64,000 bases of DNA from Capitulum mitella (Eukaryota; Arthropoda; Thecostraca; Pollicipedomorpha; Pollicipedidae): assembly GCA_030062745.1 (NCBI GenBank), contig CP099848.1, forward strand, positions 23,686,378-23,750,377, given 5' to 3'. The translations under genes were made by a program, and so were the position numbers. A model generated the notes under the pieces. The model was not told the origin of the DNA and made no database searches. It worked only from the letters and a program-made list of their open reading frames with translations. Of the stretch, positions 1,578 through 57,800 are shown one piece after another. Every line of letters starts with the position of its first letter. Position 1 is the stretch's first letter.

Positions 1578-2876
1578 GTTCTGACCGTCTCCGTTCCGAC
1601 AAATGTTAACTGCTGACTGGGGACAAGGTATGTCCTGGCGGTACGCCACTGGGTACTAGCGGGCGGACCCCATTGTAGTTTTGGCAACGGCCACTAGGGG
1701 TGTGAGTAGCGTCACCATCGTCGGTAACTCATATTAAGATTGAGGTGACGCGTGGCTGTACAATAGTGGTATTTCATTTGAGGATGGCAGAATTATTGCT
1801 AAAATGCAAAAAAAGACAGAGAGAATCCATAGTCTGCAGGACTGCATCTCTGGGGATGGCCATCCTTGCACCTAGGTACAGCGTGAGGCATTTAGGTTCA
1901 AAAATAGATGTAAATGTCAAAAAATATGTTTTTGGAGTTAATGTGCAGGATGCCAGTCATTTTTTGTACCATTTCGAAAGCTCAGAACTTGTAATTTGTG
2001 TTTTGTCATTGAGCAAAATGCATCTAATGCACCATTTATTTTTATTTTCAGATCAGCTTTAGAATGTCAAATCAACTTTAATTTCTATAAAGCATAGATG
2101 CATTCGTGATATGCAGAAAGTGAAATTGGTTGCACTAGACCCACCCCATTTCCTATTCCAGCTTGATTTGTTTTGTCATTCTTTGATATATAATTATTCA
2201 CCCTGTTCTGTGCTCCATCATGGGCATGTGTACTCCTGATCCATGCATTGTTGGAAAAACTGACATTTTTTGTTTCCAACAAGAGTAGGAGATTGCATAC
2301 TCCCAAATGCTTCGTGGCCAAAATGATACTTTATGTACTCTTCAGTCCTCATCGACATGATGAGAGGGCTGGAATGGTGGTGAAGTTACATACTCATTTC
2401 ATTTGAACTGGTCTGATTTTAGTTTCTGATTTTGTTAATTGTTTTCAGCACGATCACGACCACATATCGCATCACCAAAAGTGATATGGACTGCACCCAT
2501 AAGTAATTTTTATACAGTTCACACGGTGTTAATTGGAGCATGAGGGGCATTACATGAAGTGATGTTGTATTGTATATTGTTTCGTGTTTGATGCATGTGA
2601 ACGGAACAGGTGATTCGACAGGCATCAAAAACGCACAACTTTAATTGTCAGAACTTTGATCTAATGTACCTTGGGTAGCCTGTAAATGTGATGGACGATT
2701 TGATGTGCGTGTTAGACTCATTTGCAGAACTGCCCATTTGCCAAACACAGTTGTGAAGTTTTTCATGTAATGATAAATATCGTGCCCACTGGTTGTTTTG
2801 GCATCACATGATCACAAAATTATGTTTTTATCTTTTACAGAAGCCTTTGGTCAACCGTGACGCCGCACCTGACACC

Positions 2877-3419
2877 ATGCGCAACGTCGAGATCAAGGCG
2901 CGTGTGCGTGACCTGGCGCGCGTGCGCCAGCTGGCCGCCGAACTGAGCGGCGCGGCCGCGACCGAGCTGGTGATGCGCGACACTTTTTTCCCGACACCGA
3001 GCGGCCGGCTGAAGCTGCGCGAGCAGCAGGGCGCGCCCAACCAGCTCATCTTCTACGAGCGGCCGGACGGTAGCGGGCCGAAGCTCTCCGACTTCAGCTA
3101 CGCGGATGTCGGCGCCGACGTGGCGGCGCTGCGGCACACGCTGCGGCGCGCGCTCGGCGAGCGCGGCGACGTCGAGAAGACGCGCAGCCTGTTCATGGTG
3201 GACCAGACGCGCGTGCATGTGGACCGCGTCACTGGGCTCGGCGACTTCATGGAGCTGGAGGTGCAGCTGCGTGATGACCAGACGACGGAGGAGGGCCGGC
3301 AGATCGCCGAGGCCCTCATGAAGCAGTTGGAGGTGGCGCCGGACGATCTGATCGACTGCGCCTACATGGACATGCTGGAGAAGAAGCGACAAGCTGGGGA
3401 CATGGCCGACGGGAAGTAG
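2877..3419 (+). CDS. CYTH-domain protein (CyaB / thiamine-triphosphatase superfamily)
   Basis: Predicted 180-residue cytosolic protein, almost entirely one CYTH domain. This superfamily forms a tunnel-shaped fold that binds triphosphates with two metal ions and includes class IV adenylyl cyclases and thiamine triphosphatases. Visible signatures are N-x-E-x-K at residues 3-7 (the classic ExExK with Asn in the first place), the GRLKLRE strand at 43-49, LIFYERP at 57-63, VDQTRVHVDRV at 108-118, GLGDFMELEV at 120-129 and a final CAYMDML at 161-167. The ATG at 2877 has a good context (acaccATGc). A splice acceptor (ttttacag) ends at 2840, so the exon begins at 2841 with a short 5' UTR and an upstream non-coding exon is expected. 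The coding part is one GC-rich exon, and a poly(A) signal follows at 3879. The exact substrate cannot be told from sequence; animal members of this CyaB-like clade are poorly characterised. Confidence 0.85.
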   Translation: MRNVEIKARVRDLARVRQLAAELSGAAATELVMRDTFFPTPSGRLKLREQQGAPNQLIFYERPDGSGPKLSDFSYADVGADVAALRHTLRRALGERGDVEKTRSLFMVDQTRVHVDRVTGLGDFMELEVQLRDDQTTEEGRQIAEALMKQLEVAPDDLIDCAYMDMLEKKRQAGDMADGK

Positions 3420-11200: not shown

Positions 11201-14200
11201 CGTAGGCGGCTGTGCACGCTGGGCTCTGGCCGAGGCCGCGCCGCCGCGCTGCTGGCCCTGCTGCGCCACGAGCGCGCCTCGGTGGCCGTGCTGTCGGCGC
11301 TGTCCCGTCTGGCCGAGTGGCCCGGCCTGGCCGCCCGTCTGCTGCGGCACGGTCCGCTGGCTGACCTGCTGCCGCGCCTCCTCCGGCCTGTCATTGTGGA
11401 GGTGAGCGGCCGCTGATGGGACTGACCGCGGGCCAGTGGCGCCGGCACAGGACGGCCGGTCCCTCACCGTCACAGGACAGCCGGCCCCTCACCGTCACAG
11501 GACAGCCGGCCTCTCACCGCCACAGGACAGCCGGCCCCTCACCGTCACAGGACAGCAGGCCCCTCACCGTCACAGGACAGCCAGCCTCTCACCATCACAG
11601 GACAGCCGACCCCTCACCGTCACAGGACAGCAGGCCCCTCACCGTCACAGGACGGCCGGTCCCTCACCGTCACAGGACAGCAGGCCCCTCACCGTCACAG
11701 GACAGCCGGTCCCTCACCGTCACAGGACAGCAGGCCCCTCACGGTCACAGGACAGCCAGCCCCTCACCGTCACAGGACAGCAGGCCCCTCACCGTCACAA
11801 GACAGCAGGCCCCTCACCGTCACAGGACAGCCAGCTGCTCACCGTCACAGGACAGCCGGCCTCTCACCGTCATAGGACAGCCGGCCTCTCACCGTCTGGG
11901 GTTTCCCTAGATTTTGGGATTTCTTGTCGGCTAAAGAGGCAGCTGGAATGGTTTTGGTTAAGTCAGTCGGTGAGAATGTGGATTTTTGGACCGAAGGTTG
12001 TTCGATTTTGATAATGCGCGAAAATATTGCTGCGTGGCGTTGCTGAAATTCAAATTTCTTTCAGAATGAAGTCAGAAATCTTCTGATGATGGAGTACACG
12101 GGAGCTTTGCTAGCAATTACGGCAAGCGAAACCATTCCTGAAAACCTGTAAGTGACGAGATATGCCTGTTGTACGTAACTTGTCCTTTATTGAGCTGTCT
12201 GGTAAAGTTTGCTGCACATAATGCACACCAGGAAAGTGATGTTGCTGCCTATCATAAAATTTCTGTTGTTTTGTTTCCTGCCTGCAAGCGATTCGCCTTC
12301 TCGGCTTAGCTCTGTGTCGTATTGACGATATCTCTGGTGCTATCACGGTCGTCGATATATGTACCGGTTGATCCTTGGTGGCGTGTATCTTTTCTCTTTT
12401 CCCGGGTTGGGATTCGCCGCCGCCAATGAAGCTGTAGTCCTTCGAGACGGTGTCTTTTGCCTCGTAACCACAGAGTCCTTATCGCCAGTATCGTCTCCTG
12501 TCTCCCCACCATACTGCTTCTGCCCGTCAGTGGAGTGTTCGGTGCACCGTGTCGCGACTCTGCAAACTGAAGGTCTCCAGAGTCTCTACCGTGTGGCTCT
12601 TCGTCGCCACTGTGCACGGTGTGATTTTCCGACGTAGTTGTGTCTCCACAGTTTGGTTCTCTCTCGTCAGTCTCTTCACTATGTGGTCCTCAGTATTCAC
12701 TGCCTCCACCATGCGGTCCATAGTCGTCACTGTTTCTCCACCGCATTGCTCTCTGCTGTGATTTTCCCAGTGCCATGTGTTTTCTTCTGCCATTGTCTCT
12801 CCACCGTGCGGTTGCCTGCCGCCACCGTCTCAGTGCCGTCCGGTTTTCTGCGTCCAGTCTGCGGTGTCTGGAGCCGGCCGTCAGTGAGCTGCTGAACACA
12901 AAGCCTCCCGGCCGGGTGCTGCGGGCAGTGCTGGAGCTGCTGGCGGCCGCGGCCAGCACCGGCCAGGTCTCCTCCTTCTGGTGCTGCCACCGCGCCGCCG
13001 ACCGCCCGTCTGGTGAGGGCGCCTACGTAGGAGGAGAAACCCCTCGGCCTTGGAACCGAAACTTTGGGGCAAGGCGGTGAAGAGAGATAGTTTTAGGACG
13101 GTTTTATCACGACGTCGGAAGCTGGAGAAAGACGGATTGCTGGTGTTCAGCACAGTGCGAGGCGTTATCTGCCTGTGTCTCAGCGCCTCTATCGCCAAAG
13201 ATTACTGGCACATATCTTGTTGACGCTGAGCACGAAGGCGGGAAAAGATTCTGTTTTGTGGTGCTGAAGAACACCAGAAAATATGTGCTCCAAAAACATT
13301 TTGTACTCCAAAAGTCTGATATTGTACCTCCAGCCAAAACCTACATTATAACCATGCTGAAGAATTTCTAACTCTGGGAGCAAATGACTCTGTATCCATT
13401 CAGTAAGACGCAAGTATGATTTCATAACTGGCTTACACAGTGAATGCTAACCGAAAGTAGTATGACTGCAAAATTTTGTGCTCCAAAACAAGAATTATAC
13501 TCCAATGCCAAGAACAAAACCCAAATTTCCAACCCTGCTGAGCACGTTACAAGCTTGGGCTCCATCCCATGCTGTCGCGGACGCCTCGCCGAGACGGCCC
13601 TTTTCCAGGCACGTGCCTGCTGAAGAAGCTGTGTATCCTGCTGACGGAGTCCGCGGCCGGCGGCGAGGTCTCTGCCAGCCACCCTCTGCCGGCCAGCCAC
13701 GGTCGGCGCCGGCCGCCGCCGCCCAGCCGGCCGGTGGACGCGCTGCGCGGCGAGCTGCGGCCACCCGAGCTGCGGCAGTGGACGGTCAGTGGGAGCCTGG
13801 GGCTGCTCTGCGGGAGGGAGGGCAGAATGGTGACCGGGAGCAGCTGCCCTGGGGAGGGAGGGGACCGCGACCTGTCGAGGCCCGAGTCTGCTCTCCTGGG
13901 AGAGACGTGGACCGTGGTCAGTGGAGCCTGGGGCTGGTCTGCGGGCGGGAGGTGAACTGTGATTAGTGCCATCGGAGGATTGCAAATTATGGTCCATCGC
14001 TGTTGGGCGCCAAGATGTCGTGTAGGCTGTGTACTTTTCGAGCAGCCTTAAGTGTTGGCTGTGAGCCGTAACTTTCTGAACACGGTCTTCTTGCCTGCTG
14101 CATGCAAAAACAGCGTGTGTGTGAAGAGGTAAAGTTTTGTCCTTCCATATGGTAGCAGGAGTTTTAGCACGAAGACCATCACACTTTATACTTTTCTTTT

Positions 14201-16030: not shown

Positions 16031-19000
16031 CTACAAGACGAGTTGTGGAAATAAGAGAAACTGATCATCAAAGTGGGTGTCCAGGGGCTCGTGGTCGAAC
16101 ATCAGCCAGTCGTCGTCCGTCTCCGCCTTGACCTTGGTCAGGTCGCAGGAGGCGGCGGGAGAGGGGGGCAGGGAGGGCGACTCGGGCGACATCTGCGGGG
16201 AATCGGGCACGGCCGCCTCCTGCTGCAGCTGGGCCAGCTCGTCCAGCTGCTCTGGGCAGGCGCCACGCAACAGCTGGGCGAGCAGCTCGTCGTCGGCCGG
16301 CGACGGCGGCTCCAGCAGCTCGGCCGGCAGCGTGTCCGCGTCCGTTATCGTATCATCGCCGGCCTCCATGTCTTCTGCTGGGGTCCCCACCACAGGAGCG
16401 GCGGAGGTGGTCGTGTCCCCTTCAGACGTCTGCAGACGAACAAGATGTTTCTTTACATGGTATTGGCTAGCTAGGTATGGACCAAAAGCAGAATAATTAC
16501 TTTTGTGAAAATGCTAAATGCAATGAACTGGAAAATGCATTACAAAATGGGTATATAATGCAAAATTACACTGTTGACTACGCAAAATAAGAAAAATAAA
16601 AATCGAGCACATTTAAAACTGCAGCTGTTTCACAGCAGACAGTACTGCTGGGCCAAATTACCTCTTTGCTTCCAAAGAGTGTCTCTGTGAGGAGTTCGAG
16701 CAGGTCAACATGTTGACTGCTGCTGTCCCCAGAGCGACCTGGAAGCTGGCCCAGCTGATCAGGCTCAGAGCCAGCAGGGCTGCCACCCGCACATCCTGTC
16801 CCTTCTGCTGAGGGCCACTAATGAGTGCTGCAGACTCAAGGGGTGTGCTGGAGGCGACAGCCACTGCCGGCTTCTGTTCCTGGCTCAGCTTGAGCTGTTC
16901 TGGCTGCTGCTGCAGTCGTTCTTGCAGCAGGGCATTCTGGGTGCTCAAGAGCTCATTCTGCTTCTGGAGGAAGGTGTTTTGCTGGAGAAGCTCATCATTC
17001 TGAAATGGAGGATCAGCTATAGCATGGCAATGATGCCCAACCAGAACAAAGAAAATAAAACACACCCTGGACACATACTGAAATAAACTGCAGTAATGCA
17101 TGGATACCAATGAATTCAGTCACCATATACTATCAACACAGCTAGTGTATGCACTATGCTTTCAGCTCATGCTTCCAAAGTGAGGTTTCATGAAATGATT
17201 GCACATTAGATGCATGGGTAATCTTCACTAAATGTGCCTGCACAGACAGAACCAGAGGTTTCTAGGACTATGGCACAAATGCAAATGCTCATCACATGGG
17301 ATTTCTTCTCACAGCTTAGTGATGTCACTGTTGGGTACCTGGGTGAAAGACCATACAACAAAGAATTGTAAACAAAAGACAGAAAGGCAAATGATCTAAG
17401 AGATAAATAACAAAATAAAGGGCCGAAACGTCGTGCTGCAGCGCCGTATCGACTACTAGAGGCCATGGGCCAATAAGTGTGATCCATCTTGGCTCTATGG
17501 GACTAATGTTAGATCACACACAGCACAGTATTAGATTATATCTACACTGGGACCGTGCGCTGGGCTGGCTACATGGTGGCAATATATGACATATTACTTA
17601 TGGTATGTTACTCTTTTTGCACCCCTGCCAAACTATTCAAACAAGGCAATCCATCAAACACATTGTGCTACGGGGCGCCCAGGGCCGGATGGTGTAATCA
17701 TCCACTTGAGGGCTTAGACAAACATCCATTTCCGAAAGATGTGCGTGGTACAGGGGTACTGGCTGTATGGGCATGGCAGCTAAGTTCTGTAACATGCTCA
17801 GGGCCCCTATCTAGACATAACAATACTGTGCTTCTGGACACAACCTCTTCTGATAGAGAGCCAAATCTGATCACACCTTTTCATTAGTCTGTGGCTTCTA
17901 GTATCCTACACTGTGCCTTGAGGCTGTGCCTTTGCCTATGGTGTAGCATTGGTTTTTGGTATTTATCCCAGACTACCTTCTGCCATACAATCTTCTGCTT
18001 ACAAGCCTTTTGTCATACAACCTTTCACCTGGTTACCCAACAATGGCATCACTAAACTGTGATGAAAAATGATCTCAGTGGACAAAAAAAGCTTGCACTT
18101 TGACTTCTGCAACATCACACGCATCCCCATTTGCACCATAATCTTTCTAGAAACTGTGGATTCTGGCCACAGCAGTACCATTAGTTAACAGGTGCATGGC
18201 TTTCTGGTAATCAATACCAATTGCCTGCTTACCTGACATTCAAGACTTGCCACTCTGTTTTCCAACAGGTCCATTTGCATCTTTTTCCTGTCTCTGGCTG
18301 TTTGTGCCGCAACTCGGTTCTTGAGTTTCCTAGAAAGCAGAGAGAATATGTAAGAATGCTTGGCAACAGAAAATTTATTGCCAGAGAAGCAACTCATTCA
18401 CAACTGTAACAAATGACCCCATGATTTACCTAAATATCAATTATCTGGGGTCATATGATATGATAAAAATAAGGAACGCATAGTACCAGATCCAAAATGC
18501 AGCTATTAAAACAGCACAAAATGGCACAAACAGAAAACCCATAATGGTTACCAATGTGCAATTCAACTTACTTATGCAATCAGTTCACTGTCATTCAACA
18601 AATGAATCCTCATTCATGAATTACAGTGCAGCTATACCTGATTAAACTTGAAGCATGTGACTCATTTGTATCATAAACCAATACTCACCTCCTTTGATTC
18701 TTCTGGTCTGAAGTAAGATGGTCAAGTCTTTGCCTCTTCCTTGGTACACCTGGCATCATAGGTGCAAAACTAGAGGGCTCTGAAGCACTGAACAGTCTCT
18801 TCACAACTGTGCGCGTTTCGCCTGTTGATCCAGCGGGTGCAGCCTTCAGCTTAGCAGGCATGGGGAGGGTTACCACTGACGACTTGCTGTGGTCCTTGCC
18901 GAGGGGTCCTCCAACAGTGACAACACGTACTGTTCGCGGGACTCCACCAGTGTTGCCTTTGACGGTCCCATGATTCGCTGGGGTGATGATAATTTTCGTA

Positions 19001-19068
19001 GTCATGTCTTCGGCTGGTGCAGACACAGAAGAAAAGCTGGCCTTCAGGCCCTCCCAAAGAACTACCAC
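16031..19068 (-). CDS. XBP1: X-box binding protein 1, bZIP factor of the unfolded-protein response
   Basis: XBP1 is the target of the ER-stress endonuclease IRE1; the spliced form is a nuclear activator of chaperone and ERAD genes. Exons on the minus strand: 19068-18689, 18329-18233, 16999-16662, 16429-16031. The bZIP begins near residue 112 with KRQRLDHL, then KLKNRVAAQTARDRKK, followed by a Leu/Asn/Gln zipper. Exon 3 carries a 23-nt IRE1 intron (separate entry). Without it the product is about 299 residues, ending at 16345 with LLWWGPQQKTWRPAMIR. With it removed the frame shifts into the long exon 4 frame, giving about 396 residues (human XBP1s is 376) and an acidic tail ending FLLFPQLVL. 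All conventional phases agree. An upstream ERSE and two CREs suggest ER-stress control. The start at 19068 is the first ATG; Met22 is an alternative. Confidence 0.95.
16345..16429 (-). CDS. XBP1: XBP1u-specific C-terminus (overlapping frame in exon 4)
   Basis: When the IRE1 intron is retained, exon 4 is read in another frame as RLKGTRPPPPLLWWGPQQ, then KTWRPAMIR and a stop at 16347-16345. Just upstream, exon 3 in this frame encodes a hydrophobic stretch (AALLALSLISWASFQVALG). Mammalian XBP1u has the same order: a hydrophobic region with SLISCWAFW, SSQR, then an arrest peptide with PPFLCQWGRHQPSWKPLM. The resemblance was read by eye; the arrest function is inferred from mammalian work. Confidence 0.7.
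16808..16830 (-). promoter_or_regulatory. XBP1: IRE1-type 23-nt cytoplasmic intron of XBP1
   Basis: On the minus strand the first cleavage hairpin is TGAGT-CTGCAGC-ACTCA, with a 7-nt loop cut after CTG. The second is CCCT-CAGCAGA-AGGG, cut after CAG. Both loops fit the IRE1 consensus CNG^CNGN. The enclosed 23 nt (16830 down to 16808) shift the frame and open the whole 133-codon exon 4 frame. Mammals remove 26 nt; 23 nt is the length I recall for fly and worm. Confidence 0.93.
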
Positions 19069-30010: not shown

Positions 30011-32162
30011 CTGCGTCAGACCTAGCGGTTTTCCCTGGTCTGGTCTTCTCCTACCGGTCCAAACGTCTTCCGTCGCCTCACTGCAGCGTCAGGTTCTAAG
30101 GGCGCCAAAATAAAATGGAGGAGGGCGTCCGCCCCACTCGCGCCTCCTTCCTCAGGTCCGTTCCTGCGCTCCGGTACAAGCTTACACCACGCGGAACCTC
30201 CCGCTGCCGCAGAAGACTTGTGTCATGTGGCTGCAGGTGAAGAAGATTAACGTGTGCATTTAGATGCGATTCCCATATGCACGCGGAATGCTGACGAAGC
30301 AGGAAGCGACACGGTGAGAAGTCGTACGCGTCGTTACGACCGCTAAGGCCGGCCGGACGCCCGTCGACCGCCTCCACGCCGCCTGAGAGGGCAGCCGCTG
30401 TCAGCTGCCCCAGCCCGGCCCGGCCCGTCCGAACGGGACGCGGCTGCTGGTGCCCGCCACTGATCGGCCCCTGACACATTTGCCGGCGAGGTGGGCCAGC
30501 GGAAGGCGACGCTGTCCGTTGCTTTAGAGGCTTTGCCGGCGGGGCGAAGTGCTGCCGCTCCCGGTGAACACTTGGACGGCATTCTGTGGCGACACATACC
30601 GTCGAGTCGCGTCAGACGTGCAAGGCACTAACTCTTAACACTCGCCCGGCCGGAGGGAAATCCGTCCGCCTGAGGTTTTCCGAATGGAGGGAGGAAACGG
30701 CGGCGCGCAGCTCCGCGAAATTTCAATGCCTTTTTGTTGTTAATTTTGCATCCTGTGTGAAAATTTAAAGTTCCGAGTAGGTCAGGTTACTGACCGAAGT
30801 CAGGCCAAAGAGGTCTTAGGGTTGGGCAGATTTATATGAAACCTGCAGGAGTGGATGAGCGTAATAAACGTAGCAACATTTACATTTCGTTTTTTTCCGG
30901 AAAATTGAGGACCAATGACCTCAAGTCAGCTCATTTTTGCGCACGTTTTGAGATTTTGCATAAATTTCAGCGAATTTTCGCGGGGTTTGCATGCGAAGAT
31001 ATTGCCAAAAACATGGCTGATGACGTATGTTACCATTATATTGTTAGACCAAGCGAGACCTTAGCTCAGATCATGATCCCCGGTGCGGATATCTAAATTG
31101 CCGGCAGCATACGATTTCCAAAAAACCAAAACTGTCCGCCTAGGAGCAATTATTTATTTTTTCTAGGATAAAAAGAAAGGATGAAACCAAACTTAGCGCA
31201 AAAATAAGTTTATGTAAGGTCACCGGAGATCACCAAAGGTCAATGATCCCTGATAACTTTATTTGACCCATATTGACCTTTAGGGCAGCTTATCAAGTGT
31301 TTTACTATGCCACGGGTATCATCTGCGATCCAACTTGTTACCAAAACCATCGAGTAAGTGGAAGCGCCATACATCATAACAGCGCCACGGACATGCATGA
31401 AATTACATCGTGGCTTGACCTGACATTATTGATTAATTAGGTCACTCGCGCTATGAATGCGTTCGGCATGTTAATCGTCGAAGTGTTCCACTAAAATGAA
31501 AATCACAGCGTCAATTTCCTGTTTTATCTCGCTTCCATTTTAGCTCAGTCTGACCTATCATGACCCCTGGTAACCTCAATATTGACCCAAATAAAAAAAA
31601 GCATGGTGCTCATTCGACTCGCTTCGATGAGTTCTTTCTGGCGTTTCATTTTTTCCGTGCGGCGCACAGAACCTGAGGCCCTGAGGGGGAACGACGGATT
31701 GCCCGCATCTCCGGGCGGCTCACTCAGGCAAGCTCGGTCGTTGATGTGGTTCCCTAGGTTTTCAAACGGATTCGATCGATTTCATGAAGGTTTACCTGTA
31801 TTCGGTAGCATATGGAAACGAAGCTAGTGCTGAAAGTTTTCAAAAAGAGAGTTGCCGTAAGACACTATTATAGGTATTATTCTTTTTTAATATCTTACGC
31901 TTACTGAAGTGTCAAATCGTCCATTTCTCTTCAGATAATTGTAAATAGCATAGGTCGTTTATTGTATTGCGTGCCTTATCTTGTATTAACAGAATTTCAC
32001 TGCAGCTGTACGAAGATTCCCGAGAATCTCCAACTCCGGTCAAATCTGCAATCATATTTCGCAAGTACAGTGTTCAAATCGTGGATTTAGGTGAATTTGT
32101 ACGCGATAGTGCGGGTGTTTCTGTCTCATTGGGGATTTTTTCGCATCTGTACTAGATAGTTT
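30011..32162. other. spacer upstream of CoREST
   Basis: GC-rich to about 30.7 kb, then AT-rich. AGGTCA-like motifs recur (30.78, 30.92, 31.22, 31.55 kb). A possible 5' UTR acceptor (ttgtattaacag) lies near 31991. No coding exon other than the start of CoREST is supported. Confidence 0.45.
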
Positions 32163-33889
32163 ATGCCTTCAAGCATGGTTATGGCTGATAAACCGGCCGA
32201 AAATGGCATTCGGTCCAGGGTATCAACACCAGTGGACTACGAGTCTCCGGACAGTATCAGTGGAGCAAGTGACATAGAAAAAGAGTCTGAAAGTGAGGGA
32301 AAGATCAAGGTGGGTCAAGAATATCAGGCTCGTGTACCAGATCTGTTACCCTCAAACCAGAGAAAGCCTGAGAAATGCACGGAAAGAGGCTTGTTGATGT
32401 GGGCCCCAAGCTCCAAAGCCTCTGATGAGCAGCTAGAAAGATATCTAAAGAAATCAAAGGAGAAATACAATTATACCTGTGAACAGGCCCTTGGAATGCT
32501 TTTTTGGCACAACTACAATTTTGAAAAGGCCATGGCAGACTTGCCAAACTACACACCTCATCCAGAAGAGTGGACTGTGGAAGACAAAGTGTTGTTTGAG
32601 CAAGCATTTTCATTCCATGGGAAAAACTTCCACAAAATCCATCAGATGCTTCCAGACAAAAGCATCCACTCTCTAGTGACATATTACTACTCATGGAAGA
32701 AGTCCAGGTCCAGAGCTTCACTCATGGACAAGCAGGCTAGGAAGCTGGCAGCCCAGCGTGAAGACGGAAACTACCAGCTGTCAGACCAGAGCAGTGAGAG
32801 TGATGAGGAAAACAAGGATTCTAGTGAAGCAGAAAATGGAAGCAAAAGTCAGTGCTCCAACTGTGGTATTGCATGCCTGATCACAAACAACACTCAAAAA
32901 GGAGTGATGTGCAATACCTGCTACAACTACTTCAAAAAGAATGGCACTCTAAGGCCAACAGTAGGGCCTATCAAGGGTGAAAAGAGGGACAGACCACACT
33001 CAATGACTAGGAAGAAGTCACAGCTGCCTAAAGGGATGCATGTCAATCATGAAGACCTCCTAGAATGTGCCAAGAAAGATGGTGGAGATGCCATTATCCA
33101 TGCCATGGAACAAGAGATCACTGGCTTGAAAAGGCACATTCAGAACAACAAGCAGACCATCAGCATGCTGAAGAGGAAGACATGGCTAAACATGAGCCCA
33201 TATAGGTCATCAGACACCTCAGGGAAGATAAACGCCCGGTGGACCAATGATGAGCTTTCGCTTGCAGTGCAGGGTGTGAGGAAGTATGGCAAAAACTTCA
33301 AAGTCATAGCAGAAGTCATTGGCACAAAGACTGAACAACACATGAGAATGTTCTATACAAACTACAAGAAAAAATACAATCTGGACAGTCTCATCAAGGA
33401 ATTTGAGGAAGAGAATGGGCCAATTTCTGATGCAGATTCTAAGGTAATTTCAAGCATTATTTGTGTGTTATTGATTTGGTTATGATACATTTTCACATGC
33501 TTGACAAAAATGTTGATTGTTTATTGCATCATTACAGTCATTTTTGTATGATTTTTTGTTGGGTGCCATTAAATCATGTAAAACCTTTGATTTCTTTTGG
33601 TCTTATTATAATATCCCATACCAGCCATAGGAGTTTGCTGGTGTTCATGATTTTTTGCATACTTTTCAGAAAGATCTTTAGTTCAGAAGCTGAAATAGAA
33701 ATTGTACCTAACAGTGCACCACACTGCTATAGCTCAGTCATCTGTGCATCTCTTGACACTTGCTGCCTCCCAGCCAGACCCTGACAGATTGCTCCTCCAC
33801 AGATGGACGTGGACACGCCCACCAGCGGTGCGGACACGCCGGCGAGCGTGCAGGGTCGCGGCGGCTCGCCGGTGACCCTGCGCCACTGA
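32163..33889 (+). CDS. RCOR1: CoREST / REST corepressor (ELM2-SANT-zinc finger-SANT)
   Basis: Scaffold of the LSD1-HDAC1/2 repressor complex in the nucleus. Two exons, 32163-33443 and 33803-33889 (phase 0), give 455 residues. The order is: acidic N-terminus; ELM2 at about 48-130 (YQARVPDLLP, EQALGMLFWHNYN); SANT1 at about 136-180 (VLFEQAFSFHGKNFHKI); a C-x2-C-x15-C-x2-C GATA-like finger at 231-253; an LSD1-binding linker helix at about 310-340; SANT2 at about 356-403 (NARWTNDELSLAVQGVRKYG); and a short tail beginning MDVD. Vertebrate RCOR proteins lack the finger; I believe arthropod ones have it. Nearly the whole protein lies in one exon whose base composition is much less GC-rich than the neighbouring genes. 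The start could also be Met5 or Met7. Confidence 0.93.
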
Positions 33890-36181: not shown

Positions 36182-38018
36182 GTTGAAATGGATTGCTACG
36201 CTTCTTTTGAGACTGCATGAGATCAAACACAGTCTGGAATATTTTGAAATTATCCAAGGCTACAATATATTTCTTAATTTCCAAACATCAGCCCACGACT
36301 TTTGAGGTGTCCTAGAACGAATTGCCTGTCAGGAAGTTAAAGACGAATACATGTCCATCACTATAAGTTCCGACATGAATGTTGCATTAGCAACGCAAAA
36401 GAGTCAATTATGGTGTGTGTATATATGTGGAATTCACATGGCATATATGCATGTGAGCCGGAACCGGAAGGGAAGCACACCTAAAGTACGCTGTGTTGAA
36501 CTGTACCATATGAAGAACTGGTCCTGAGTTTGAGGGTACCTGTGGTACTGTCCCATGTAGACGTACTTGCGACTGCACGCTTTAGTCGTGCACTTAGGGA
36601 TCTGCAGTCGATGTGCGACGGGAAACCCGTGGGCAATTGTATATTCGTTTGTTTGTTTGTGACTTTAGACACACAGCCTCTTGGGCAAGGTGTCCGGTGT
36701 TGGGGCGAGCCTTGTGTTGCATTAGGCATCAGTCAGTCGTTGCAGTTGTATGAACACAAGGATGTAGCGGTGCTGGGTGTGTGTGAATGTGGCACCGTTA
36801 TGTAATTTGGAATCACCCAAGGCTATGCCCATGGGTGTAGCATCCCACATTTCAGTTAGGATAGCAGGCATTCCAACTCGGAATAATCTCAACATCTATT
36901 CAGTCTTGTGCAGAAATATAGCCTAAAATAGTTAGCCATGTCAAGTTGGAAAATGCATCTGTGCCAATAACTATGTTGTAGAATAGGATCATGTGATAAT
37001 GGGTGGAAAGTTTTGAGCCATTCCTGAGCACATCAATGATGCTCAGGAGTTTCCATTGCTTTGCAGGTTCTCCGCATTCACTTGTTGTGAAGAGAATAAG
37101 GCTGGTAATTGTAAGGATGTGAGCTTATTTTGGTACTGGTAACTCTTGAGTGGTGGTGTACATTGTATGGTTTGGGCACCATAAATCTGAGCCCAGATGG
37201 CTGTGTGCTTGAAGTCCAAAGGAAACCCTAAACCTAGTTTCCAGGTATAAAAAATGGATGTAAGGAATGTGTTGGTTTAAAGGGTATGAAGCAATTCTGG
37301 ATGATATCACTGTTGAAGTCTTTATCATGCTCTCCATTATGTTAAAAAGGGAAAACTAAAAATTTACTACTCATCTTTTTCTGTATGCTCCTAAGACTAA
37401 GCAATATAAGTTTATAGATACTGCTAGCAAATTGCCACTGGAATAAACTAATCATGATTTTGGCAGTACTGAGGAAAACCTTATGGCTGGTTAAAGTTTT
37501 GTTTAAATATGCAACTATTGCCTTGTAGGTCCATTTGCTCATTCCATCAGTTAAACAGATGATATTAGTATGGAAATGAATATACCTCAGAAATATGTGA
37601 TTTTTGCAGTCATGTGTTGTTGCCATTATACATTGCATCCTTGCCTGGCCAACCTGTTTTCTCATGGTTTAAGCAAAATGAGTATCCATTGAACATTAAA
37701 GGCTTCAGGCTTTTGGAAATGGTCCTGTTTGTGGTACATCACAGAGTCCATGGAAAGTGTGAAGTTATCAAATGTTTGGTATAGACCAGGTCTTTCTTTG
37801 CAATGCTAGGCTTATTTCAAGGATAAATTCTAGGAATAATGGAAAAATGATGGTTGAATAAGTCAAGGTCTCAAAGCTTCATAGTTATGCCAACCATACC
37901 TTTAGCTTAAACATATTCATATTTTAATGTGGCCATAACATTTTGTGGATCAGCTTTCTTGGCAGACCTTTTAGTCAGTCCAAAACATTGTGTATTCATG
38001 ATTTCTGACTGCACACAG
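36182..38018. other. spacer upstream of PGAM5
   Basis: AT-rich; no supported exon. The sequence directly before the PGAM5 ATG (ctgactgcacacag) could be an acceptor for a 5' UTR intron. Confidence 0.4.
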
Positions 38019-38936
38019 ATGGCATCCTCTGGAACTCGGCTGCAGCGGCTGCTGCTGATGGGGCTGGGTGCACTGGGTGGCAGCTCTGCCGTGTTGTTGC
38101 TGCAGCCCCAACAGCAACAGGAAAAGCAGTCTAGGCTGCAGCTGGAGCCTTCCAAGCCGCCTCCGCCAGTGTCGTACAGCGCCCCCGAGCTGTTCAGCGG
38201 TGGCATCGCGCTGCCCACTACCAAGTGGGACTTCAACTGGGACCAGCGGGCGCCGAGCTCGCTTGTCGAGCCGCCCAAGGGCCGCTCCGAGGCCGAACTC
38301 AAGGAGGACGCCCAGTACCAGGAGGCGCTGGCCAAGGCCAAGTCGCGCGCGCGCCGCCACCTGATCCTGATCCGGCATGGCCAGTACCACCTGGACGGCG
38401 CCAGCGACGAGGAGCGTACGCTGACCGAGCTCGGCCGGCGCCAGGCCGAACTGACGGGCGCGCAGCTGCGCCGGCTCGGCCTGCCCTACACGGCGCTGGT
38501 GCGCTCGAGCATGACGCGCGCGCTCGAGACGGCCGACATCATCCGGCGCGAGCTGGACGCCGCGCTGCCGGTGGCCACGTCCGACCTGCTGCGCGAGGGG
38601 GCGCCGTTCACGCCCGAGCCGCGGCTGCGCCACTGGCAGCCGGGGCCTCGCCGCTTCTTCGAGGACGGGCCGCGCATCGAGGCCGCGTTCCGGCGCTTCG
38701 TGCACCGCGCGCCGCCTGAGCAGGACGCCGACAGCTACGAGATCGTCGTCTGCCACGCCAACGTGATCCGCTACTTCGTGTGCCGCGCGCTGCAGCTGCC
38801 GCCCGAGGCGTGGCTGCGCTTCAGCCTGCGCCACGCCAGCCTCACGTGGATCACCGTACTGCCGAACGGCCGCGTCAAGCTCGACTTCATGGGCGACGCC
38901 GGCTTCATGCCGCCCGAGGCCATGACGACCACGTGA
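38019..38936 (+). CDS. PGAM5: PGAM5-type mitochondrial Ser/Thr/His phosphatase
   Basis: A histidine-phosphatase-fold enzyme that dephosphorylates proteins and is anchored to mitochondrial membranes. It is 305 residues in a single exon (human 289). The N-terminal anchor is at about 9-28 (LQRLLLMGLGALGGSSAVLLL), followed by a Gln/Pro-rich segment. The WDxNWD oligomerisation motif (WDFNWD) is at 70-75. The catalytic RHG (LIRHGQYH) has His120, with SSMTRALET at 163-171, the acid/base region LLREGAPF at 190-197, the second histidine in CHANVIRY at 246, and PNGRV near 282-286. The ATG at 38019 is chosen because it matches the family start; an in-frame ATG at 37929 would add 30 residues not seen in the family and is probably upstream of an acceptor. 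A poly(A) signal is at 39112. Confidence 0.93.
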   Translation: MASSGTRLQRLLLMGLGALGGSSAVLLLQPQQQQEKQSRLQLEPSKPPPPVSYSAPELFSGGIALPTTKWDFNWDQRAPSSLVEPPKGRSEAELKEDAQYQEALAKAKSRARRHLILIRHGQYHLDGASDEERTLTELGRRQAELTGAQLRRLGLPYTALVRSSMTRALETADIIRRELDAALPVATSDLLREGAPFTPEPRLRHWQPGPRRFFEDGPRIEAAFRRFVHRAPPEQDADSYEIVVCHANVIRYFVCRALQLPPEAWLRFSLRHASLTWITVLPNGRVKLDFMGDAGFMPPEAMTTT

Positions 38937-54849: not shown

Positions 54850-57800
54850 CCGGGCACTGTCCGACCCTGACGGCGACCCCGCGCCGCCGGCCGCCGGCGT
54901 CGACGCGGAGCCCGACGGCGGGCCGGGTGGGACGGCCGTCACCGACGCCTGCCGCCACTGGCCGTCGCTGCGCTGCCCGAGCCTGCGCTGCTCCGGCCGC
55001 GGCGTGATCGACTGCCGGCCGCGCGGCAGCGGCGTCAGTGAGTGCCTCGGCCGGCCGGCCGGCCGCGCTCCTCTCGAGACGGCACTGGACGTGTCGGCGT
55101 CTCGCCGGCACGGGGCCGGCGCGCTGAGCCATAAGGCCAAGCACTCCATGTCCGCATTTGTGGGGGGAATCACAATCGCCGAAACTAGTTTCAGAGCTGA
55201 GTGCATCACGCTCTCCAAGCTCGATCCTGCAGTCACTTTGTATTGTTCATGTCTTTTCAAGGATCAGTTTCATTTGAAACATGAAATTACGGTGCTTCCT
55301 GCTTGTAAGGAATAGCCCATGTTAAACCACGCGGTAACGCGCCCCACTATGAAGCAAAATCGGTTGGGCAGTCTAATCAATGTTGTCCGCATGGCAAATA
55401 CTAGACAAGACCTTGTCACGACTAACACGGATGTATTTTTTAGTAGACGACGACTTCGTTAAGATGCTGGCCACGTCATTCTTCCTCCACCTGAAGAGCA
55501 CCGTTCTGGCCGAGTTTTTCAAGACGCCGTCAGCGTCGATCGACGAAGCGGCTGTGCCGGCCCGCGCTCAGAGTCAGCCGGGGCGGCACGTTCAGGACAG
55601 GCCCGAGGGCGACGCTGGCTCCCAGGCCGACCCATGGCCGGGTCCTACCGCGGCGACCGAGGGCTCGGACGCCGCCGGTACCGGGGCGTCGGACGGGGCC
55701 GCGGCGACCGCCGGCGAATCGACGGAACGACGGTCGTCGTCCGCGGACAACGGAGCCGAGCGGCCGGCCGTCCTGTCGGCCGGCGGCGTGGCCGACAGCA
55801 GCGCGGACGGCGGCGGCGGCGCGTCTCCAGCCGTCGTCCCGAGCCCAGGCCAGTCGGCGCCGACGCCGCCCGGGGCCGGACGCCCTGAGAGCCAGGCGAC
55901 CGGCGGCGGTCGGGGGTCGGCGGCCGCCTCTGAGGCCGCGGGTCTCCGACGGTGCAGACCGGGCGGTCCGGACGGGCAGGCGGGCGGGCCGGGCGGCGGC
56001 AGCCGGCAGCGGTCCGGCGGCGGCGGGAGACGGCCAGGCGCCGCGCTCCAGCGGACCGACTGTGGCCAGCCCGACCCCTCCGTCTGACGGGGACGGGGGA
56101 GCGACGGACGCGGACAGGACGGTGACCCGGCCGCTCCCAGCCGGCACCGCTAAGGAGACCTCCAGAGTCGCAGAAGGCTGGGCGCAGACCAGACGGGAAG
56201 AAGAAGCAGCCCAGTCCCCCTCCCGGTTAAGTACAGAAGACCGTGTCCATGGTGGGAAAGGTGAACGGAAGATCTTGACTGATGCCTCTTCTAACAACCT
56301 CCCTTTCAATCAACGTTCTACAGGTGGCAAGAGCAGGCGCAAGAAACACAGCGTGATTCGGCCGAGCCGCTACGAACTGGACCCTTCGAGCGTCGACAGA
56401 CCCAAAGTGTTATTGGTCCACCCGGAACCAGGCGGTAAAACCACGGCAATCGGGCCTGTAAAAACCGTGGTAAAAGTGAATGTCGGTTCGACCCCTGGGT
56501 CGCCTCCGCAGTTTACTGTGAGGTCCCTCGTTAGGGTGACCGCTCCGCAAGACAAACACGTGGAGTTCTCGCCGGACAAGGCCAGCGGGCTACATTCGCC
56601 CACGCGCGCTGGAGATACGGAGCTAGGAGACAGTAGCGAAGGAGGACGTCTAATGACAGCCCAGAAGCCGACCACACCTCTCACAAAGACATCCCAAGCG
56701 GACGACGGCGCCAGTGGTCTGTCCTCCTCACCAGGCAGGTTCAGCGGCAACGGTGGCCAGCAGGCGCCCATGGAGGGAGGCAGAGTCGGCCAGGTCTCCA
56801 GCAGGTCTGAGACAGTGCCCGGCGGCGGCACAGCCGCGCCGGCCGCCTCCGCATCGGAGGCCCCTGCACCCACCGGGGGACGTCCCAGCCGCCTGCCGGC
56901 CGGCCTCTCCGCCGACTCCGCCCTGCGCCTGCCGGAGCAGAGCGCGCCGGAGCCCACCCCGTCCGCGGAGCCTGCGTCAGAGCCGGCGCCGACAGGCCCG
57001 TCCGCCGAGCCTGCGTCAGAGCCGGCGCCGACAGGCCCGTCCGCCGAGCCTGCGTCAGAGCCGGCGCCGACAGGCCCGTCCGCGGAACCTGCGTCAGAGC
57101 CGGCGCCGACAGGCCCGTCCGCGGAACCTGCGTCAGAGCCGGCGCCGACAGGCCCGTCCGCCGAGCCTCCGTCAGAGCCGGCGCCGACAGGCCCGTCCGC
57201 GGAGCCTTCGTCAGAGCCGGCGCCGACAGGCCCGTCCGCCGAGCCTCCGTCAGAGCCGGCGCCGACAGGCCCGTCCGCGGAGCCTTCGTCAGAGCCGGCG
57301 CCGACAGGCCCGTCCGCGGAGCCTCCGTCAGAGCCGGCTCCGACAGGCCCGGCCGGCGAGACCGCCGCGACGGCCAACCTCCTGGGCGTGCTGTCACCGG
57401 CCCAGCTGGCTCAGTTTCAGCGCACCCTCCTGCAAATCCTGCAAAATGATACCGGCTTCAAGCAGCAGGACCGCCAAATGGGTGAGCTACAGCTCGAAGT
57501 CTGAACGCCGAAAATGTTTCTGTATGCCCGCCATCACTCCTGCTGATGTCAACACGACGTTTGATGTGATTCCTTTGCCTCCGACGAGAAAAAAATCGCC
57601 CACTTAAGAGATCAATTATCAGCTTTTTAAACGAAGTGAAGGAAGGCTTGCACGAAGCAGAGATGCAAGTCTATGCAGGTTAAGGGTCATGTTTGGGCCG
57701 TTGGCTGCGCTTACCCAGTATCGATGACCTCTCGCAGTGAGGTCGCTGGTCCTGGAGAGGACCCGGTTCCCGGACCTGCCCAGCCCAGTGACCAGCACCG

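Follow-up and report, generated by a model that had tools for sequence, protein, structure and literature searches.

The 64-kb window (the whole stretch of DNA analyzed here) contains the XBP1 gene of an animal, probably an invertebrate. Its unspliced product XBP1u carries a strongly hydrophobic stretch followed by a C-terminal tail that matches the human arrest peptide beyond what the coding of XBP1s can account for. On the strength of work in human cells and flies, we consider it likely that these parts form a functional device, comprising a ribosomal pause, membrane targeting and delivery of the mRNA to IRE1, and that the device has a common origin with that of vertebrates and flies. The gene structure, the match to the IRE1 intron family, the hydrophobicity of the targeting stretch and the tail match were observed directly; pausing, targeting and common descent in the present animal are what the human and fly work would lead one to expect.

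The XBP1 gene and its IRE1 intron

The gene occupies positions 19005-16031 of the minus strand, with four coding exons that have AG/GT at every internal border, the splice sites being predicted from the genomic sequence alone. Translation of the unspliced message yields XBP1u of 278 amino acids (stop at 16347-16345), and taking out 23 nucleotides yields XBP1s of 375 amino acids (stop at 16033-16031). In the joined protein Pfam identified a bZIP domain (bZIP_2, E 1.1e-10; bZIP_1, E 1.3e-10). The features, all on the minus strand, are as follows.

18689..19005, minus strand: XBP1 exon 1, coding sequence starting at the ATG (open frame, GT donor, in-frame join to the bZIP exon)
18233..18329, minus strand: XBP1 exon 2, encoding the basic region and the first part of the leucine zipper (AG/GT borders; Pfam bZIP on the joined protein)
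16662..16999, minus strand: XBP1 exon 3, remainder of the zipper, IRE1 intron and HR2 (AG/GT borders; XBP1u and XBP1s frames both kept)
16805..16827, minus strand: unconventional (IRE1) intron, 23 nt (Rfam RF04247; borders set by the CAG/CA pattern and the frame shift)
16730..16786, minus strand: HR2-like stretch VAALLALSLISWASFQVAL, XBP1u amino acids 210-228 (top hydrophobic 19-mer of XBP1u; the ends are those of the 19-mer)
16031..16429, minus strand: coding sequence of XBP1 exon 4, with the activation region of XBP1s and, in an overlapping frame, the XBP1u tail (once the 23 nt are removed, XBP1s continues to 16033-16031)
16354..16407, minus strand: arrest-peptide-like segment PPPLLWWGPQQKTWRPAM, XBP1u amino acids 259-276 (9/18 identical to the human arrest peptide)
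16345..16347, minus strand: stop codon of XBP1u, separated from the predicted P-site Met by an Ile and an Arg codon

The original prediction had quoted several XBP1u peptides as belonging to one protein, and they do: LALSLISWASFQVALG, SSQR and PPPPLLWWGPQQKTWRPAM, the last followed by IR and the stop, lie in one continuous minus-strand frame when exon 16999-16662 is joined at the predicted splice sites to the exon running from 16429 onward.

The Hac1/Xbp1 intron family of Rfam (RF04247) matched at 16781-16856 with 41.0 bits, a score equal to the gathering score of 41, and was the only Rfam family to reach its gathering score within the 64 kb. The whole model was matched (1-72 of 72), including both small hairpins, with no notable difference from the family. 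Removing the predicted 23-nt intron shifts the frame from XBP1u to XBP1s, as for the IRE1-spliced bZIP factor XBP1. A sub-threshold match to the MIR169 microRNA family over the same hairpin (16765-16874, minus strand; 21.5 bits, gathering score 80) is probably due to chance because the local hairpin is strong.

A duplication reported for barnacles had made a second XBP1 copy conceivable. When the animal's own genome (477 Mb in 16 contigs) was searched with XBP1u, four of the five matches at E <= 0.01 were the exons of the present gene, and the fifth, on a different contig, was weak (29% identity, E 0.0017); one XBP1 gene, and no second copy, was found in the 477 Mb.

Elsewhere in the window, all on the plus strand, a long open frame at 32160-33485 encodes ELM2, REST_helical and Myb domains and represents a homologue of REST corepressor (CoREST), a frame at 37911-38936 encodes a PGAM5-like phosphatase (top PDB match PGAM5, 5muf, E 5.8e-83), and one at 2757-3419 encodes a CYTH-domain protein (Pfam PF01928, E 1.5e-18). 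XBP1 with its unconventional intron, together with the CoREST-like and PGAM5-like genes, points to an animal as the source. Long ORFs at 11365-12011 (plus strand) and 56370-57504 (both strands) are made of short repeat units, such as SEPAPTGPSAEP, that are open in several frames, and look like tandem repeats.

The tail compared with human and fly XBP1u

XBP1u ends in PPPLLWWGPQQKTWRPAM-IR (16407-16348). Aligned to the human peptide without gaps, amino acids 259-276 are identical to it at P243, P244, L246, W249, G250, Q253, W256, P258 and M260 (human numbering). The BLOSUM62 score of this 18-mer, 55, ranked first of the 127,894 in the six frames of the window (runner-up 29; mean -23.5, sd 9.3; z 8.5) and first of the 357 positions in the same offset frame of XBP1s, where the next reached 18. 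Among 177,635 distinct PDB sequences, a 28-residue query with the tail returned six matches at E <= 10. Human XBP1u from the paused ribosome came first (E 0.83), ahead of ribosomal protein L29, which is unrelated (E 0.93), and of a nascent chain that carries the motif as well (9mr4, E 1.1). As expected for a query of this length, no match is significant alone.

In human XBP1u (PDB 6R5Q, 6R6G, 6R6P, 6R7Q; PMC6624018), as here, HR2 precedes the tail, the tail lies in the same frame relative to XBP1s, and the pattern W-G-x-x-Q-x-x-W-x-P-x-M is present. The end of the HR2 19-mer lies 48 residues from Met276, compared with 52 for the human counterpart (PMC6624018). At human positions 241, 248, 251, 252, 254 and 255 the tail in the window has Arg, Trp, Pro, Gln, Lys and Thr in place of Tyr, Gln, Arg, His, Pro and Ser, and it continues for two residues rather than one past the Met.

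Drosophila is reported to conserve both HR2 and the C-terminal pausing region (Coelho et al. 2014, PMC4138184). Ribosome profiling in the fly reportedly shows a peak toward the 3' end of Xbp1u, and zebrafish, mouse and human have peaks that align with it, with five residues conserved (PMC8152447). Comparing with the fly through these published residues, we found that all five residues common to fly and vertebrates are kept, at -11, -10, -7, -4 and -2 from Met276; the Glu printed at -7 in PMC8152447 we took as a slip for Gln, the residue present in both human and the window. Human L246 and W256, whose replacement by Ala abolished pausing (PMC4138184 / PMC8152447), are also retained.

Mutagenesis of the human peptide identified Y241, P244, W249, G250, R251, H252, W256 and P258 as optimal (PMC6624018). 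Five of these eight are kept, and Arg, Pro and Gln stand at 241, 251 and 252. The tail thus lacks the full set of eight, which is not required for membership, since the fly has a reported ribosome peak with just five residues in common with vertebrates. One of the three changes, R251P, is found in natural sequences and merely raised the full-length product from 0.46 to 0.61 (PMC6624018). At position 255, which is Ala in Drosophila (PMC4138184), the tail has Thr. Ser255 was completely conserved across 90 BLAST hits, and in a strengthened version of the human peptide every tested change of residue 255 from Ala, even to Ser, abolished the measured arrest (PMC6624018).

The three altered residues and the Thr at 255 lend some weight to an explanation that we nevertheless regard as unlikely, namely that the tail has been kept by descent while its pause is too weak to matter here, with XBP1 mRNA finding IRE1 in some other way, as it partly does in the fly. 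When both HR2 and the tail are missing, splicing in the fly is lowered but not abolished, from 15/37 to 9/38 clones (PMC4138184). Two observations weigh on the other side: the match exceeds that expected from XBP1s coding (see below), which argues that the tail has been under selection at least until recently, and the human arrest peptide is itself described as being held weak by selection (PMC6624018).

We think it very improbable that the arrest peptide arose in parallel, with an origin of its own in the present lineage. Nothing speaks for this directly, except that the overlap eases the appearance of some residues, the second Trp coming free from a Met-Glu of XBP1s, and it has to contend with a tail whose place and frame relative to XBP1s are those of the human tail, whose spacing from HR2 differs from the human by at most four residues, and which contains the residues common to fly and vertebrates (PMC8152447).

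The SSQR motif counts for little. It is present in frame and in the mammalian order, as predicted, but it lies four residues farther from the W-G pair than the human SSQR and MAFFT left the two unpaired, so we dropped it as evidence.

Constraint from the overlapping XBP1s frame

Because the wobble base of XBP1s is the second codon base of XBP1u, a synonymous change in XBP1s usually alters XBP1u. We exploited this relationship by holding the XBP1s residues of the tail region fixed and redrawing synonymous codons 200,000 times under each of four codon usages, counting draws that contained a stop as misses. Scores of at least 55 arose at a frequency of 1.5e-5 when codon usage was taken from the gene outside the overlap, 3.5e-5 when taken from the whole gene, 2e-5 when taken from 911 codons of three neighbouring frames, and 5e-5 when uniform, values that are rough in that each rests on 3 to 10 successes. 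Joint occurrence of L, W, G, Q, W, P and M was seen in 1.2e-4 to 3.4e-4 of the draws. Over the whole 75-residue overlap (20,000 draws), local alignment against the human tail gave P values of 6e-4 with gene usage and 5e-5 with uniform usage. The tail match therefore goes beyond the synonymous null and is not accounted for by the coding of XBP1s.

Hydrophobicity in XBP1u is highest, among all its 19-mers, at amino acids 210-228 (Kyte-Doolittle value 1.94); LALSLISWASFQVALG starts at amino acid 214 of the unspliced frame. Its human counterpart HR2 spans residues 186-208, and mammalian HR2 is caught by SRP and then taken to Sec61 and IRE1 (PMC4456659). In 20,000 draws the hydrophobicity exceeded the synonymous null (P 2.5e-4 with gene usage, 1.6e-3 with uniform usage), with the proviso that draws containing stops were retained and the stops scored as strongly polar, which somewhat favoured the observed sequence. 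Residue similarity to human HR2 (SLIS, WA), measured by the alignment score, did not exceed the XBP1s-coding null (P 0.53 and 0.29). A residue match to human HR2 is not what defines the segment in the cited papers, so this result weakens the argument from residues and not the claim of a hydrophobic segment. Both this result and the finding that an open XBP1u frame over the overlap is not rare (P 0.20 and 0.06) run counter to the wording of the original prediction. The gene model, together with the null for the tail and for HR2 hydrophobicity, supports the broader claim that an HR2 and an arrest peptide of mammalian type are encoded in overlap with XBP1s.

For a further comparison of the tail, human DNA was taken from a construct given in PMC6624018, whose authors had altered codon 255. 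Identities to human numbered 9/20 in the XBP1u frame (BLOSUM62 sum 50) and 6/19 in the XBP1s frame (sum 23), and similar residues were level at 10/20 and 11/19, respectively; chance gave the third frame 5/19 residues in common with human. With codon 255 set aside, bases agreed with human at 13, 10 and 8 of 19 sites at XBP1s codon positions 2, 3 and 1, such that agreement at the wobble base was, in this small sample, not the lowest of the three. That the XBP1u frame has no function and is a by-product of XBP1s coding or of chance is scarcely credible, for even granting that XBP1s resembles human here too, that its codons account for the residue similarity of HR2, and that an open XBP1u frame across the overlap is not rare under the null (P 0.20, 0.06), this account fails to produce the tail score, the hydrophobicity of HR2 and the larger number of identities and higher sum in the XBP1u frame.

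Proposed mechanism and its place among known arrest peptides

The anatomy fits the mammalian scheme, in which the tail turns within the exit tunnel and slows the ribosome (PMC6624018), and predicts a pause of a strength that is not readable from sequence. As a ribosome synthesized XBP1u from the unspliced mRNA and Met276 reached the P site, the tail PPPLLWWGPQQKTWRPAM would slow it from inside the tunnel. By then the end of HR2, 48 residues off, would lie beyond the tunnel and be open to capture by SRP or the membrane. Captured HR2 would bring the XBP1 mRNA to IRE1, which would excise the 23-nt intron and shift the frame, giving rise to XBP1s. In all likelihood this is the established mechanism, and what is new is one further species.

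Of the two origins that the original prediction allowed, the better reading is a pausing device that arose before the vertebrates, but the novelty implied there does not stand, the idea having been published already (PMC4138184, PMC8152447). Among the open-licence PMC papers listed we found no report of the tail in non-insect invertebrates, which is weak evidence of absence. Papers on ticks (PMC9426425) and honey bees (PMC5562734) mention unspliced XBP1, and the word 'pausing' is absent from the portions of their text available; further XBP1 literature includes PMC8948244, PMC4891664 and PMC10501990. The combination of Thr at 255 and Lys at 254 was not found in the text, figures aside, of the cited papers, and the string 'T255' in the available text of PMC8908735 was rejected as a residue, belonging instead to a notation.

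Searches for relatives gave 31 pattern matches in viral contigs with exon 1 and 59 in genome contigs with XBP1u, and a two-row alignment of the human and window tails gave 88 in viral contigs and 103 in genome contigs, none of them confirmed. Because these collections are viral, bacterial and archaeal, absence from them is uninformative about animals.

As a tentative extension, slightly more doubtful than probable, the tail may be an ancient bilaterian device in which nothing but a W-G..Q..W.P core, usually with Met after it, is fixed and positions 251, 252, 254 and 255 have been retuned in each lineage, with Thr255 and Lys254 resulting in a differently timed pause.

The gene would add one more animal, possibly not an insect, to the few so far listed for this cellular arrest peptide, a well-studied one that aids the ER delivery of its own mRNA. 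The XBP1s frame provides a built-in control, which allows selection on the tail to be argued from a single sequence, and the substitutions at 251, 252, 254 and 255 would serve as natural tests of the arrest model based on the human structure.
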